Shown here piece after piece: positions 21,982 through 27,045 of a stretch of 64,000 nucleotides of DNA (the first letter of the stretch is position 1; every line of letters starts with the position of its first letter). Source of the stretch: an uncultured Bacteroidota bacterium (GTDB lineage Bacteria > Bacteroidota > Bacteroidia > B-17B0 > Aurantibacillaceae); contig CAITNS010000041.1 of NCBI GenBank assembly GCA_903893815.1, positions 1-64,000 on the forward strand, written 5' to 3'. The translations under genes and the position numbers were made by a program. A model generated the notes under the pieces. It did no database searches. It was not told where the DNA came from and saw only the letters and a list, made by a program, of their open reading frames with translations.

Positions 21982-22024
21982 AATTAAATAGAATACATGT
22001 TTTAACATTTAATTCTATTTAATT
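21982..22024. promoter_or_regulatory. AT-rich 13-bp inverted repeat upstream of the haem lipoprotein operon
   Basis: AATTAAATAGAAT (21982-21994) and ATTCTATTTAATT (22012-22024) are perfectly complementary with a 17-base loop. It lies between the photolyase stop and the start of the four-gene unit. There is no T tail, so it looks more like an operator or a weak terminator than a standard intrinsic terminator. Confidence 0.45.
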
Positions 22025-22051
22025 TAATTAACGTAAAAATAACTTTGGAAA

Positions 22052-23374
22052 TTAAAACAGTTTAGTTTGTTTGTTCTCTGTTAAGGCTTCTTTATAAACA
22101 GCCAATACTCTTAGTCGTGCAGAGGCGTGATCAACAATTGGTTTTGGATATTTATCAGTGTTAAATTCAGGAATCCATTTTTTGATGTACTCATAATTTG
22201 GATCAAACTTTTTGGTTTGCTCTGTTGGATTAAATACTCTAAAATAGGGTGCTGCATCACAACCACTTCCTGCTGCCCATTGCCAACCACCGTTGTTGGC
22301 GCTTAAATCAAAGTCTAATAATTTTTTTGCAAAATAGGCTTCGCCCCAACGCCAATCAATTAATAAATCTTTCACTAAAAAACTGGCCACAATCATGCGC
22401 ACTCTATTATGCATAAAGCCAGTAGCATTTAACTCTCGCATACCAGCGTCTACAATCGGGAATCCGGTTTTACCTTCGCACCAAGCTTTAAATTCACTTT
22501 CGTTATTACGCCATTCAATTCTATCATATTGTGGTTTAAAAGAATTTTTTGCCGCATGAGGAAAATGATACAAAATCATCATGTAAAAATCTCGCCAGAT
22601 CAATTCGTTTAACCACGTTTCGTTTAATACTAAGGCTTGTTTTGCTAATGCTCTAATACTAACTGTTCCAAAACGTAAATGGACACTTAATTTACTGGTT
22701 CCTTTAATGGCAGGAAAATCTCGTTGTTCTTTATAATTAGTAACAATTGATTTGCTAATCGTTGTTGCTGGAAATTCTAACTCTGTTTTTTCAAATCCCA
22801 TATCATTTAAAGTTGGTACATCAAATGTTTTTGTTTGAATAAAATGCTTAAAATATTTTTTATTTGGATAAGCCTTTACTTGAAAATCGGTTAAGCGTAA
22901 TTTCCATTTACGACTGTATGGTGTAAATATAGTATAAGGTTTTCCATCATCTTTGGTCACCTCCTCCTTCTCAAAAATGCACTGGTCTTTATAGGTTTTA
23001 AATTCTATTTTATGCTTTCTTAAAAAATCTTTAACTGCTCCATCTCGCTCATCCGCATAAGGTTCATAATCATGATTTGTAAAAACGGATTGAATCGTAT
23101 ACTCTTTATTTAGGTCTTTAAATACTTTTTCGGGTGTCGAATAAAACATTTTAATGGAACTTCCCAACTCTATTAACTTGTCATTTAAGCTTAAAATCGT
23201 CTGATGTATAAATTCTACACGACCATCATTTTTGTCTTCTAACTTATCTAAAATGTTTTTATCAAAAATAAAAATTGGCAAAACAGGCATTCCTTTTTTA
23301 AGCGCATGGTATAAACCTGCATTATCGTCTAAACGTAAATCCCTTCTAAACCAAAATATGGATATCTGCTTCAT
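22052..23374 (-). CDS. phrB: Deoxyribodipyrimidine photolyase (cryptochrome/photolyase family)
   Basis: 440 residues. The N-terminal alpha/beta antenna domain opens ISIFWFRRDLRLDDN. The FAD-binding helical domain carries VHLRFGTVSIRAL, ELIWRDFYMMILYHFPH, then GFPIVDAGMRELNATGFMHN and the signature LDFDLSANNGGWQWAAG with SGCDAAPYFRVFNP. It repairs cyclobutane pyrimidine dimers using blue/near-UV light. It is a single gene on the minus strand, divergent from hutU. A decayed copy of its 3' end lies at 19054-19240. Specificity for CPD rather than 6-4 products is assumed from the class I-like sequence. Confidence 0.93.
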   Translation of the reverse strand: MKQISIFWFRRDLRLDDNAGLYHALKKGMPVLPIFIFDKNILDKLEDKNDGRVEFIHQTILSLNDKLIELGSSIKMFYSTPEKVFKDLNKEYTIQSVFTNHDYEPYADERDGAVKDFLRKHKIEFKTYKDQCIFEKEEVTKDDGKPYTIFTPYSRKWKLRLTDFQVKAYPNKKYFKHFIQTKTFDVPTLNDMGFEKTELEFPATTISKSIVTNYKEQRDFPAIKGTSKLSVHLRFGTVSIRALAKQALVLNETWLNELIWRDFYMMILYHFPHAAKNSFKPQYDRIEWRNNESEFKAWCEGKTGFPIVDAGMRELNATGFMHNRVRMIVASFLVKDLLIDWRWGEAYFAKKLLDFDLSANNGGWQWAAGSGCDAAPYFRVFNPTEQTKKFDPNYEYIKKWIPEFNTDKYPKPIVDHASARLRVLAVYKEALTENKQTKLF

Positions 23375-23454
23375 CTAATTTTAAACAATGAATGTATCTG
23401 AAAGTTTAAAAAAATCATGTAATTTCAGCACTTCTAAATTAACCTAATTAACTC

Positions 23455-25911
23455 ATGGAATTACAACAATTTCAACAACACATATTAAAAGGTATTCCTT
23501 CTGTATTGCCTCAGCCAAAAACATACGAAAGCACAATCAATCATGCGCCAAAACGTAAAGACATTTTAAATGGGGAAGAAAAAAAATTAGCGATTCAAAA
23601 TGCCCTACGTTATTTTGAACCTCAACATCACGCTGTTTTGGCAAAAGAATTTGCAGAAGAACTAAAAACATACGGACGAATTTACATGTATCGATTTCGT
23701 CCTGATTATAAAATTTTTGCTCGTCCGATAAATGACTATCCTCATCAATCTATTCAGTCCGCTGCCATCATGCATATGTTAAGTAATAATTTAGATTATG
23801 CTGTTGCTCAACATCCACATGAATTAATTACGTATGGCGGAAATGGCTCTGTTTTTCAAAACTGGGCTCAGTACTTGCTAACTATGCAATATTTAGCAAC
23901 TATGACTGATGAGCAAACCTTAGCATTATATAGTGGTCATCCCATGGGATTATTTCCTTCACATAAAGATGCGCCAAGAGTAGTTGTAACAAATGGAATG
24001 ATGATTCCTAATTATAGCAAGCCAGATGATTGGGAAAAATTTAATGCGTTAGGTGTAACTCAATATGGACAAATGACAGCAGGTTCATTTATGTACATTG
24101 GTCCGCAGGGTATTGTGCATGGCACTTGCATTACTGTAATGAATGCGGCAAGAAGAGTAGCCCCCCAAGCCCCCCAAGGGGGGAATCAAGAGACGCGATT
24201 CTCTTATGAAACTGCAGATCAAATAACCTATGGTTTATTAAAAGAGTTTGTAAAAGAACATAGGAGTAATCCAACTGAAGCTGAAAAATGTTTTTGGGAA
24301 TTAGTACGCGGAAAAAAAATAGAAAATTATAAATTCAGAAGACAACACATTATTGGTAAGTATATTGTTGATTTTGTTTGTTTGGAAAAGTTTTTAGTTG
24401 TTGAAATTGATGGGTTAATTCATCAATTACCTGACAATAAAGCCAATGATGAGGAACGAACAAAGTGGTTAAATGAAAAAGGATTCAAAGTTATCCGTTT
24501 TACAAATGAAGAGATAATTTCAAATACGGAAAAAGTTATCGAAACATTGTTAAATGAGTTAAACAATCAAATTGCAACAAATCCCCCCTTGGGGGGTAGG
24601 GGGGCTGGTCTTCTATTTATTACCTGTGGTTTAGGAGGCATGAGCGGTGCTCAACCAAAGGCAGCTAAAATTGCTGGCTTAGTATCTGTTACTGCAGAAA
24701 TTAATCCAAAAGCAGTTCATACGCGTCATTCGCAAGGTTGGGTTGATGAGGTATTTGATAATTTAGATGAATTGATTCCTCGAGTTAAAGCGGCGCAAGC
24801 AAATAAAGAAGCAGTATCATTAGCGTATCAAGGTAATATAGTTGATTTATGGGAACGTTTAGTAAAAGAGAATATGCCAGTAGATATAGGTTCTGACCAA
24901 TCATCGCTTCATAATCCATGGGCTGGAGGGTATTATCCTGTTGGTTTATCATTAGAAGAAAGCAACCTACTAATGGCTTCTAATCCTTATAAATTTAAAA
25001 AGGAAGTTCAGAAAACGTTAGTTCGTCATGCTACTGCTGTGAATACTTTAACTGGAAAGGGCATGTACTTTTTTGATTACGGAAATGCTTTTTTACTAGA
25101 AGCTGGAAGAGCAGGTGCTGATATTTATGAAACAGAAAAAGCAATTAAAGGCGGACATGTTGGCGCAACTTTCAAATATAAAAGTTATGTACAAGATATT
25201 TTAGGGCCAATGTGTTTTGATTATGGCTTTGGTCCGTTTCGTTGGGTTTGTACAAGCGCTAATGAAAAAGACTTACAAAAAACCGATGAAATTGCGTTAA
25301 GTGTTTTAGAAGAAATTTATAAAACTGCTCCGGAAGAAATTAAACCTCAATTACAAGATAATATTGTTTGGATTAGAGATGCCATGAAAAACAATTTAGT
25401 GGTTGGTTCGCAAGCCCGCATTTTATATGCCGATAGCGAAGGTCGTGTAAAAATTGCTGAAGCGATTAACAAAGCCATTGCTGCAAAAGAAATTTCGGCT
25501 CCTGTTGTTTTAGGACGAGATCATCATGATGTAAGCGGAACAGATTCTCCTTACCGCGAAACCTCAAACATTTATGATGGTTCAAAATATACTGCTGATA
25601 TGGCTGTACAAAATTTTGTAGGTGATAGTTTCCGTGGCGCTACTTGGATTAGTTTACACAACGGCGGTGGCGTTGGTTGGGGCGAAGTAATTAATGGTGG
25701 TTTTGGTTTAGTATTAGATGGAAGTGAAGATGCTGACAGACGTTTAAAATCCATGTTGTTTTGGGATGTGAATAACGGTATAGCTCGCCGCAGTTGGGCT
25801 CGTAACAAAGAAGCAAATTTTGCTATTAAACGCGAAATGGAACGCACTCCTAATTTAAAAGTTACCTTACCAAACATAGTTGATGACTCTATTTTAAATA
25901 ATTTATTTTAA
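23455..25911 (+). CDS. hutU: Urocanate hydratase interrupted in frame by a DUF559 endonuclease domain
   Basis: 818 residues. Urocanase adds water to urocanate in histidine degradation, using tightly bound NAD. Family motifs: YGQMTAGSFMYIGPQGIVHG, GLGGMSGAQPKAAKIAG (NAD-binding loop), VDIGSDQSSLHNPWAGGYYP, FGPFRWVCTSANEKD (likely the conserved cysteine region) and GRDHHDVSGTDSPYRE. The family part totals about 669 residues, normal for the longer Bacteroidota type. Residues 236-384 are foreign: a DUF559 nuclease domain framed by GC-rich terminal inverted repeats. They lie between NAARR and LLFITCGLGG, a loop just before the NAD-binding strand. No frameshift or stop is present, so a 90-kDa fusion is predicted. 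Activity of urocanase is uncertain. No hutH, hutI or hutG is in the window. Confidence 0.93.
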   Translation: MELQQFQQHILKGIPSVLPQPKTYESTINHAPKRKDILNGEEKKLAIQNALRYFEPQHHAVLAKEFAEELKTYGRIYMYRFRPDYKIFARPINDYPHQSIQSAAIMHMLSNNLDYAVAQHPHELITYGGNGSVFQNWAQYLLTMQYLATMTDEQTLALYSGHPMGLFPSHKDAPRVVVTNGMMIPNYSKPDDWEKFNALGVTQYGQMTAGSFMYIGPQGIVHGTCITVMNAARRVAPQAPQGGNQETRFSYETADQITYGLLKEFVKEHRSNPTEAEKCFWELVRGKKIENYKFRRQHIIGKYIVDFVCLEKFLVVEIDGLIHQLPDNKANDEERTKWLNEKGFKVIRFTNEEIISNTEKVIETLLNELNNQIATNPPLGGRGAGLLFITCGLGGMSGAQPKAAKIAGLVSVTAEINPKAVHTRHSQGWVDEVFDNLDELIPRVKAAQANKEAVSLAYQGNIVDLWERLVKENMPVDIGSDQSSLHNPWAGGYYPVGLSLEESNLLMASNPYKFKKEVQKTLVRHATAVNTLTGKGMYFFDYGNAFLLEAGRAGADIYETEKAIKGGHVGATFKYKSYVQDILGPMCFDYGFGPFRWVCTSANEKDLQKTDEIALSVLEEIYKTAPEEIKPQLQDNIVWIRDAMKNNLVVGSQARILYADSEGRVKIAEAINKAIAAKEISAPVVLGRDHHDVSGTDSPYRETSNIYDGSKYTADMAVQNFVGDSFRGATWISLHNGGGVGWGEVINGGFGLVLDGSEDADRRLKSMLFWDVNNGIARRSWARNKEANFAIKREMERTPNLKVTLPNIVDDSILNNLF
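24159..24606 (+). mobile_element. DUF559 endonuclease element inserted in hutU
   Basis: The element starts with AGCCCCCCAAGCCCCCCAAG followed by GGGGG (24159-24183) and ends with CCCCCCTTGGGGGGTAGG followed by GGGGCT (24583-24606). These are inverted copies with few differences. Between them the hutU frame stays open and encodes a domain of about 105 residues: NPTEAEKCFWELVRGKKIEN, YKFRRQHIIGKYIVDFVC, VVEIDG and WLNEKGFKVIRFTNEEI. This is the DUF559 (Vsr-like PD-(D/E)XK) fold with D306, E317 and D319 of the fusion in catalytic-type positions. Net gain is about 149 codons. There is no separate start codon next to a ribosome site that I can defend. Confidence 0.85.
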
Positions 25912-25940
25912 TGCATGAAACACGTCTTGTCTCTTCCAGC

Positions 25941-26036
25941 TGTCAAACTGAGTGAGTCGAAGTGGAGTCAAGAAGTTTTTAATACACAGATTCGTATATT
26001 CGTAACCAATTCGTAATAATTCATTCGTAATTCGTA
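25941..26036. repeat. Two repeat types in the hutU-ACMSD spacer
   Basis: 25941-25962 is a diverged copy of the unit found in leuS (TGTCAAACTGAG followed by TGAGTCGAAG). 25991-26036 contains five TTCGTA units (starting at 25991, 25999, 26010, 26024 and 26031). Both look like dispersed intergenic repeats. Confidence 0.6.
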
Positions 26037-26055
26037 CCTCGCAAATCAAAATATT

Positions 26056-27045
26056 ATGTTCACAATAGACACTCATACTCACATTATTCCAAAACACATT
26101 CCTGATTTTACAAAAAAATTTGGTTATGGAAATTTCATCCAATTAGATCATCATGCGCCTGGTAGAGCATGGATGATGCAAGACGATAAACGTTTTAGAG
26201 AGATTGCAGAAAACTGTTGGGATGCTCAAGTTCGCATTAAAGATATGGCAGAACACCAAGCGGATATGCAAGTTATTTGTACTATCCCAGTGATGTTTAG
26301 TTATGATGCAAAACCAAATGACTGCTTAGAGATTTCACAATTTTTAAATGATGATATTGCCAATACGGTTAATCAGTATCCAGATAAATTTATTGGTTTG
26401 GCAACTGTGCCTATGCAAGATACTAAACTAGCCGTGCAAGAATTAGAACGTTGCATGAAACTAGGATTTAAAGGTGTGCAGATAGGAAGTAATATAAATA
26501 ACATCAACTTAGGCGAACCACAATTTCATGATTTTTGGGCAGCTTGCGAAAGAACAAATGCTGCTATTTTAGTTCACCCTTGGCAAATGATGGGACAAGA
26601 ACACATGACTAAATATTGGTTGCCATGGTTAGTAGGTATGCCTGCCGAAATTAGCCGAGCAATTTGTTCGATGATATTTGGTGGCATCTTCGAAAAATAT
26701 CCAAACCTAAAAGTATGCTTTGCTCACGGCGGTGGTTCTTTCTTACCAACTATTAGTCGTATTGAGCACGGCTGGGAATGTCGTCCTGATTTAGTAGCTA
26801 TTGATAACGAATTTAATCCTAAAAAATACTTGGGTAAATTTTGGGTTGATTCGCATGTATGCGACCATAAAATGTTACAATATATTATTGATTTAGTGGG
26901 GGCCGATAAAGTCGTGCAGGGTTCTGATTATCCGTTTCCATTAGGAGAAGCAGTTCCTGGAACGTTAGTTCGTGAGGCGCCACTTTCTGACGAAACAAAA
27001 AAAACAATTATGGAAACAGCTGCAAAATCATGGTTATCCTTATAA
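26056..27045 (+). CDS. nbaD: 2-Amino-3-carboxymuconate-6-semialdehyde decarboxylase (ACMSD)
   Basis: 329 residues, amidohydrolase superfamily. Decarboxylates ACMS, the product of 3-hydroxyanthranilate dioxygenase, diverting the kynurenine pathway from quinolinate towards 2-aminomuconate. The zinc ligands are the HxH pair in IDTHTHIIP (residues 7 and 9), the histidine in AAILVHPWQMMG, the histidine in KVCFAHGGG and the aspartate in VVQGSDYPFPLG. GLATVPMQD is another common family segment. Length is normal. The upstream neighbour is hutU; the dioxygenase gene is at 48437, 22 kb away. Confidence 0.93.
   Translation: MFTIDTHTHIIPKHIPDFTKKFGYGNFIQLDHHAPGRAWMMQDDKRFREIAENCWDAQVRIKDMAEHQADMQVICTIPVMFSYDAKPNDCLEISQFLNDDIANTVNQYPDKFIGLATVPMQDTKLAVQELERCMKLGFKGVQIGSNINNINLGEPQFHDFWAACERTNAAILVHPWQMMGQEHMTKYWLPWLVGMPAEISRAICSMIFGGIFEKYPNLKVCFAHGGGSFLPTISRIEHGWECRPDLVAIDNEFNPKKYLGKFWVDSHVCDHKMLQYIIDLVGADKVVQGSDYPFPLGEAVPGTLVREAPLSDETKKTIMETAAKSWLSL

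Follow-up and report, generated by a model that had tools for sequence, protein, structure and literature searches.

The urocanate hydratase gene (hutU) of an uncultured Bacteroidota bacterium contains, in frame within the conserved enzyme, a DUF559 nuclease bracketed by inverted palindromic arms (Table 1). It lies in the window analysed here, a stretch of 64,000 nucleotides from contig CAITNS010000041.1. The preliminary description of this DNA had proposed a homing-like or transposable element tolerated as protein, a view that gains support from the analysis below. We favour the interpretation that the insert is probably a mobile, non-spliced, palindrome-flanked element of homing type with a Vsr/EDxHD-like nuclease, which would cut vacant alleles and home into them.

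Table 1. Features of the hutU region (window positions).
Feature	Position	Strand	Details
hutU (urocanate hydratase) reading frame including insert	23455..25911	+	818 aa + stop
Approximate recombination tract around insert	23750..26050	.	unlike G019 (empty), like G015 (palindrome-only); left edge clear
Complete insert: DUF559 nuclease between two arms	24159..24606	+	residues ~236-384; from comparison with empty alleles
Left arm: outer tail AGCCCCCCAA + hairpin-forming CCCCCCAAGGGGGG	24159..24184	+	translated APQAPQGG
DUF559 (PF04480) PD-(D/E)XK-type nuclease domain	24241..24561	+	Pfam match and predicted fold
Codons D306 (24370-24372), E317 (24403-24405), D319 (24409-24411)	24370..24411	+	invariant in 25/25 inserted domains
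Right arm: CCCCCCTTGGGGGG + tail TAGGGGGGCT	24582..24606	+	translated NPPLGGRGA

The hutU frame runs unbroken, as first reported, across an insert of 149 codons (448 bp). The insert had been read as purely extra codons; it is present, but comparison with empty alleles shows that it replaces about 10 residues of the native loop (SKSEEDRIGK type). Its ends are accurate to a few bases only, since the empty alleles compared belong to other species. The Pfam match to DUF559 covers residues 263-369 of HutU (E=1.7e-33; 115.2 bits against a gathering cut-off of 20.6), placing the domain in PF04480 as had been recognised from the letters; it is flanked by Urocanase_N (89-213) and by the stronger part of the urocanase Rossmann domain (380-582). 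The acidic residues D306, E317 and D319 stand where they had been noted and correspond to columns D49, E60 and D62 of the inserted-domain profile A1. The predicted nuclease-domain fold (mean pLDDT 85) matches 3hrl (Z 14.4), 3r3p (Z 12.3) and 1cw0 (Z 11.6), the closest characterised folds being the homing endonuclease I-Bth0305I (3r3p) and Vsr, which are tied. A sequence-profile search gives a weak hit to I-Bth0305I at E=9e-6 and none to Vsr at E<=1. By predicted fold and conserved acidic residues, the domain is assigned to the PD-(D/E)XK / Vsr-type nucleases. The structure model of full-length HutU was poor (mean pLDDT 58.8) and was not used for placing the insert in the enzyme.

The preliminary description mentions neither the arms nor the palindrome-only alleles and the recombination tract presented below. 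The arms are GC-rich and palindromic, and the insert ends form an imperfect inverted repeat (24151-24182 against 24583-24614, 81% complementary). The core CCCCCTTGGGGG, with up to one mismatch, has two matches in the window, both at the insert ends, where 0.02 are expected and 0 of 100 shuffles reach two.

Searches among related genomes found hutU in 58 of 60, and 30 loci were returned and read: 24 have a native-type loop, four a palindrome without nuclease and two the nuclease. Empty, palindrome-only and occupied alleles coexist within one genus. On this patchiness among the 30 loci, an ancient family feature of urocanase is rejected, the outcome that a nuclease found at this place throughout the phylum would have indicated. 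Two other genomes (identities 75% and 74%) and a Lutibacter record (L254) share the insert and its site in hutU.

The domain had been expected inside unrelated genes, where it is indeed found. With a threshold of 140 bits, profile A1 gives 81 matches, spread over 63 of 395 class genomes; such class and phylum counts are lower bounds, because the genomes sampled are a part of larger groups and no more than 11 or 14 candidates per genome were scored. Within host frames lie 79 of the 81, two of them broken at the right arm, a proportion that speaks for this subclade and not for DUF559 as a whole since A1 was built from inserted domains only and ranks inserted copies first partly by construction. 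DUF559 proteins had been described at first as usually free-standing; most copies in the subclade are inserted. Their hosts include LeuS, MetH, IleS, AcsA, RecG, RecJ, MutS, TsaB/D and IcmF, with at least 21 internal protein sites in at least 16 gene families, 13 of the 21 sites being occupied more than once. Isolates, too, carry related inserts, for example in MetH of Flavobacterium cucumis DSM 18830 and in LeuS of Cellulophaga baltica DSM 24729. Of 46 genomes tested for a second LeuS beside the interrupted one, 45 gave none (these are 46 of the 50 genomes with an insert in LeuS, G139, G209, G396 and G433 being left out). LeuS sites A and B show empty, palindrome-only and occupied alleles, as hutU does. 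In G007, G009 and G017, unrelated repeat peptides occupy site A, so shared positions may partly reflect tolerance and not targeting.

Values of dN/dS from 0.023 to 0.146 in the 17 calculable pairs of 22 chosen, single ratios being rough because many synonymous distances exceed 1, together with the invariant acidic residues show purifying selection on the inserted nuclease. A younger age of the insert than of its host, judged by dS, holds in some pairs and not in all: insert and host values are 0.45 and 2.18 for G033/G109, about equal for L110/L112, and higher in the insert for L045/L162; DNA identity profiles are mixed, and relative age is not counted among the main evidence. On the nuclease tree (125 columns, quick method, 50 of 134 inner branches open), insertion-site labels need 39 changes against a shuffled mean of 92.9, with 0 of 200 shuffles as low, although near relatives alone make such labels cluster. 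LeuS_A, MetH_1, MetH_2 and AcsA each appear at several places. The nucleases group by insertion site across families, yet several lineages appear at one site. At LeuS site A, the nuclease of L056 (family f1) is 64% identical to that of L069 (family f25) and 42% to that of L055 (family f1), whereas the LeuS hosts rank in the opposite order; this discordance is incompatible with vertical descent of one old LeuS insert and shows that the site was invaded more than once. Reoccupation of the same sites and patchiness among alleles fit what would be expected of a homing element.

A recombination tract covers the hutU insert. Against G019, a near relative with an empty allele, the window's genome (G000) has 78-92% identity at 23.6-25.9 kb and 90-99% over most of the rest, while its identity to the palindrome-only G015 is 90-97% at 23.8-26.0 kb and drops to 77-88% downstream. 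Of the two edges, the left is clear and the right not sharp (87-92% at 25.2-25.9 kb and 91% at 26.8-28 kb in the comparison with G019). Further low-identity stretches in that comparison (79-84% at 19-21 kb, 87% at 28 kb) together with the unsharp edge mean that ordinary recombination could have made the tract. The closest relatives of the flanks, G014 and G015, are now palindrome-only; G014 has the left flank in common with the window's genome and hardly the right.

In the mechanism that we propose, the nuclease would cut vacant alleles and the break would be repaired from an occupied allele, the insert being copied along with its flanks. The insertion sites would lie in surface loops. Translated, the arms give a Pro/Gly/Ser-rich peptide that could act as a flexible linker; the nuclease and its host enzyme would then each be able to fold, and splicing would be unneeded. 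Palindrome-only alleles would be decayed copies that have lost the nuclease. The unsharp right edge of the tract and the tie between the homing endonuclease fold and Vsr make us hold the homing-type reading less firmly.

It is conceivable, though we consider it rather unlikely, that the palindrome is the mobile entity: a REP-like repeat would transpose, the nuclease being a processing enzyme or cargo that acts on the palindromic ends and not on the host gene; insertions would arise at many places, and mostly in-frame ones in tolerant loops would survive. The many different host genes agree with this, as does the pairing of the arms: scored as inverted repeats, they exceed the 99th percentile of shuffled controls at 88 of 115 host-associated inserts and 11 of 22 free-standing loci. 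Cross-pairing between arms of different elements is seen too (95th percentile of mispaired arms 24, mean 13.8; mean of true pairs 21.2), so that element-specific arms were discarded and a shared repeat family describes them better. Palindrome matches occur elsewhere, 29 in G142, 25 in G180, 16 in G392 and 13 in G033, against none for the reversed palindrome in 26 genomes, and of the 29 in G142 just one sits no farther than 1 kb from any of the at least 7 DUF559 matches listed there. Free transposition would not be expected to yield a nuclease phylogeny that tracks site, and no target-site duplication is seen at hutU, in a comparison limited to alleles of other species and complicated by the replacement of the native loop. 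A genome-wide palindrome family is not found in G000 either: the CCCCCTTGGGGG-type pattern, with up to three mismatches, has three matches there, two overlapping and all at the two ends of the insert, and the CACCCCNAACCCC type has 0. The insert has no transposase, DUF559 being its sole Pfam domain above cut-off; where a Y1 REP transposase might lie between the arms, Pfam finds DUF559.

The homing-type reading is weighed against three further explanations. Purifying selection would also be expected of an accessory domain retained in many enzymes for a host function in repair, defence or regulation; patchiness among close relatives, unrelated hosts, different nuclease lineages at a site and palindrome-only alleles make this very improbable. 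Equally little credence goes to an unrecognised splicing process that would take the insert out of the RNA or the protein, although inserts lie in enzymes for which no second copy was detected, LeuS for one. Inteins have a Hint splicing domain, Cys/Ser at the start and His-Asn at the end. The hutU product has no match to a Hint/intein family at E<=10 in Pfam, and the insert starts with APQ.. (VAPQ..) and ends with ..GRGA. The Rfam search, made at hutU only, finds no group I or II intron at E<=5 over 22000-27000, where the sole match is a sub-threshold lncRNA. The intein and intron readings at hutU are set aside on these results, in agreement with the preliminary description. Of the 79 high-scoring inserts associated with hosts, moreover, 77 keep their arms open and in frame, for which there would be no need if the insert were removed from RNA. 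The draft state of the assembly (86 contigs, 2.53% estimated contamination) might evoke an assembly or binning artefact, a concern raised at the outset; the same insert and site in independent genomes and related inserts in named isolates reduce its probability to almost nil.

The usual explanation for homing endonucleases in conserved genes is that introns or inteins remove them. Were a nuclease able to remain in the mature enzyme, splicing would be dispensable. The balance tips slightly towards a third homing endonuclease lifestyle beside the spliced and the free-standing ones: a never-removed "stay-in" element, with palindromes as translated flexible linkers, which would reside in essential enzymes present as a single copy, LeuS among them, and spread by gene conversion through Bacteroidota. 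If so, the recurrent sites would be a natural map of places accepting a domain of ~120 residues (LeuS, IleS, MetH, RecG and others), DUF559 domains within housekeeping genes would be explained, and, several carriers being isolates, a selfish-gene system tractable in culturable bacteria would be at hand. Among the matches listed in the open-access literature (titles and starts of abstracts, with subscription papers and non-PMC preprints outside this scope), no description of a non-spliced nuclease in frame in host enzymes was found.

In REP/BIME elements with RAYT, an arm is an unpaired tail plus a hairpin, and two arms stand inverted around a nuclease gene. The hutU element has the same arrangement of arms but a DUF559 nuclease in place of the Y1 transposase, and its copies lie within coding sequence. 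With inteins and group I introns carrying homing endonucleases it shares a nuclease in conserved genes, sites common to several lineages, empty, full and decayed allele states and, possibly, flank co-conversion (the hutU tract, with its unsharp right edge and other recombined stretches nearby). It differs from them in its palindromic arms at both ends, and in that no splicing element was found here and the nuclease apparently remains part of the mature enzyme. The comparison follows the account of homing in PMC3943268 and PMC3229294. The nuclease-domain fold resembles I-Bth0305I/EDxHD (PDB 3r3p) and Vsr, whereas I-Bth0305I has additional DNA-binding regions (PMC3943268) and the insert hardly exceeds a catalytic domain plus arms. 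VsrA of Caulobacter, a DUF559/Vsr-like protein with a proposed repair role (PMC12907096), belongs to the same domain family but, as other free-standing members, stands alone where the hutU domain is inserted. Rickettsia palindromic elements are palindromic DNA translated in frame in unrelated genes, of ~150 bp and encoding a short peptide (PMC10969869). The hutU element is likewise an in-frame, protein-coding palindrome in unrelated genes; in contrast to those short elements it is a 448-bp element of Bacteroidota with a conserved nuclease as its product.

The hutU gene of the window carries a DUF559 nuclease domain in frame, as the preliminary description had read it, and the frame length and Pfam match collected below bear this out.

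Features of hutU and of the domains of its product
Feature	Position	Basis
hutU	23455-25911	unbroken frame, 818 codons
Urocanase_N	HutU residues 89-213	Pfam
DUF559	HutU residues 263-369	Pfam, E=1.7e-33, 115.2 bits vs cut-off 20.6
Urocanase Rossmann domain, main part	from HutU residue 380	Pfam

At the DNA level the insert is bounded by two GC-rich arms, AGCCCCCCAAGCCCCCCAAGGGGGGA (left) and TCCCCCCTTGGGGGGTAGGGGGGCT (right), which together form an imperfect inverted repeat. Beyond the insert ends, the arm core CCCCCTTGGGGG has no further copy in the window (≤1 mismatch), nor has the extended arm pattern in the genome of the window, G000 (≤3 mismatches). Pfam and Rfam searches at hutU detected no intein and no intron, respectively, in agreement with the earlier reading. 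In alignment with the PDB urocanase 6uek the insert position falls in a short unaligned stretch between chain residues 237 and 245, which is probably a surface loop. Comparison with empty alleles shows that the insert replaces the native loop of HutU; set against these alleles, which come from other species, it shows no target duplication. A second, weak DUF559-like match (L163; E=5e-5, 32% identity) lies beyond the window in a 1310-aa frame (C41:121357-121743), and similarly weak matches are listed in genomes G004, G006, G016, G017 and G019 in frames of 663-1310 aa.

The predicted nuclease domain has a mean pLDDT of 85; fold comparison rests on this domain model, the full HutU model being poor and left out. 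Its fold matches 3hrl, a putative endonuclease, at Z 14.4; I-Bth0305I, a homing endonuclease (3r3p; Z 12.3), and Vsr (Z 11.6) follow and count as tied under the rule that the tool applies. Foldseek places 3hrl first (E=8.6e-7) and 3r3p next (E=4.7e-5), with Vsr at E=0.026. By sequence profile, 3r3p is matched at E=9e-6, and Vsr is absent from the matches at E≤1.

The hutU insert belongs to a wide family of Bacteroidota nuclease inserts that are apparently translated through; literature searches confined to open-access papers found no description of such a family. Used as query, the insert matches in 57 of 87 genomes of the order, and translation of 29 returned loci (L036-L064) places DUF559 in frame inside MetH, LeuS and HutU, with three copies free-standing. 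In G001 a single LeuS frame contains two copies. An alignment of 25 inserted domains has T17, E20, W24, FRRQ37-40, D49, F50, E60, D62, G63, H66 and R91 among its invariant residues. Its profile matches at least 150 of 395 class genomes at E≤1e-20. At ≥140 bits there are 81 matches across 63 genomes, 79 within host frames and 2 free-standing, a ranking that favours inserted copies because the profile was made from them. One of the 79 sits at the start of an RluA-type gene, another at the end of a PurQ-like one; in two the frame is broken at the right arm, the LeuS genes of G142 (frame change, L124/L195) and G282 (in-frame TAG, L127), as sequenced. In the phylum sample, E≤1e-38 is reached in at least 22 of 296 genomes; five lie outside the class, one of these with a free-standing copy, and the two of the five that were read have the domain in MetH. 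The contig of L230, filed under 'Candidatus Nitrotoga', carries a MetH whose insert is of a type found in Bacteroidota records, and is perhaps mis-binned.

Domain matches from the fetched loci (138, of which 137 were kept and the partial L175 left out) were clustered by host, and cluster representatives were identified with NCBIfam and Pfam. The 137 comprise 107 domains internal to a host frame, 22 free-standing and 8 terminal or unclear. The internal ones occupy 21 sites in 16 gene families, bearing out the expectation of the same domain within unrelated genes; 13 of the sites were seen more than once, and for four domains just one flank is seen (two at contig ends, two with a broken frame). 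The hosts are LeuS, MetH, AcsA, SpoIIE-type phosphatase, RecG, IleS, HutU, RecJ, IcmF, MutS, TsaB, TsaD, family III CoA transferase, M23 peptidase, AddA/RecB-like helicase and HsdR, with HisF-type, RluA-type, PurQ-like and HutG-like proteins as partners in terminal fusions. Pro, Gly and Ser make up 33% of the 25 residues either side of the domain vs 15% in the host, and domain GC is below host GC in 105 of the 107. Genome G269 has several related copies (L135, L144, L129, L133): two free-standing, one following a PurQ-like domain as a C-terminal tail and one inside an AddA/RecB-like helicase. Among the best 80 of 582 loci from named genomes, 67 have it in a frame of 250 aa or more, and isolates of Winogradskyella, Marivirga, Leeuwenhoekiella, Salegentibacter, Flavobacterium, Cellulophaga and Aequorivita are among the carriers; MetG, CinA, ValS and PurL, as read from the sequence itself, appear to be additional hosts.

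The inserted domain is under purifying selection as protein, since dN/dS (NG86) is low: of 22 chosen pairs, 17 gave a finite value, between 0.023 and 0.146, with dS exceeding 1 in many of them, and the other five have saturated synonymous sites. LeuS is essential, and in 45 of the 46 genomes searched (out of 50 in the set with an insert-carrying LeuS) its matches are confined to a single interrupted locus or complementary contig-end pieces, an overlapping second piece occurring in G103 only; the interrupted LeuS should therefore be a functional enzyme.

A quick-method tree of the 137 domains (125 columns) leaves 50 of 134 inner branches open. The 29 site labels need 39 changes on it; shuffled labels need 92.9 on average, and none of 200 shuffles is as low. 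HutU, RecJ, MutS, TsaB and HisF inserts each form a single starred group, and those of LeuS_A, LeuS_B, MetH_1, MetH_2 and AcsA are scattered over several places. At LeuS site A, the nuclease of L056 (family f1) is 64% identical to that of L069 (f25) and 42% to that of L055 (f1), host identities left/right of the insert being 64/51% and 82/72%, respectively. At MetH site 2, the nuclease of L044 (f1) shares 68% identity with that of L072 (f21) and 47% with that of L161 (f1), host identity being 83-85% either way. Several nuclease lineages at one site within one family speak for sites that were invaded more than once rather than for a single old insertion.

The core of the preliminary description, a homing-like or transposable element tolerated as protein, holds. 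We favour homing as the probable mechanism, in which the nuclease would cut vacant alleles. Transposition driven by the palindromic arms is a less likely alternative source of the inserts. In 88 of 115 host-associated inserts the left arm pairs with the right one at a level beyond the 99th percentile of shuffled controls, as it does in 11 of 22 free-standing loci; arms from different elements pair too, on average less well. Their usual form, a tail such as CTCACCCCTAA plus a hairpin such as CCCTCTCCAAAGGAGAGGG, matches in 18 of 26 genomes tested (reversed control 0). Part of these matches are arms of DUF559 inserts, for example both in G017. Most of the 29 in G142 are not such arms, 1 of them lying within 1 kb of the seven listed DUF559 matches; the palindrome is therefore an independent repeat, and this keeps the transposition reading alive.

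The surroundings of hutU bear on homing through cutting of vacant alleles. The near relative G019, with an empty allele, is 90-99% identical to the window in most bins of 14-33 kb and 78-92% at 23.6-25.9 kb, with minima of 78-84% at 23.8-24.0 and 24.6-25.2 kb. G015, with a palindrome-only allele, is 90-97% identical to the window at 23.8-26.0 kb, 83-88% at the hutU start and 77-88% downstream of the gene; G014, also palindrome-only, matches the left flank at 95-100% over ~250 bp and hardly matches the right. Co-conversion of flanks accompanies homing (PMC3943268), and the recombination tract over the hutU insert may be a case of it. The tract lacks a sharp right edge, and further low-identity stretches against G019 (79-84% at 19-21 kb, 87% at 28 kb) indicate recombination elsewhere in the region, which counts against reading the tract as homing.

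Intact hutU genes of relatives, the comparison that the preliminary description had proposed, show a likeness to homing. hutU was found in 58 of 60 related genomes, and the site was read in all 30 loci returned: the loop is of native type in 24 (NAARK..SKSEEDRIGK..LFVTCGLGG or similar), whereas four have a palindromic or palindrome-plus-filler sequence without nuclease (G014, G015, G010, G002) and two the nuclease (the window and G033), which occurs additionally in G109 and in a record titled Lutibacter (L254). The 30 loci read at LeuS sites A and B cover the same range; at site A of G007, G009 and G017 (L297, L303, L304) an unrelated in-frame repeat peptide, HPELVSGSQEMLKQVQH, occupies the nuclease-element loop. 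The published homing cycle (PMC3229294) passes through empty, full and nuclease-less states, like the empty, occupied and nuclease-less alleles that coexist here.
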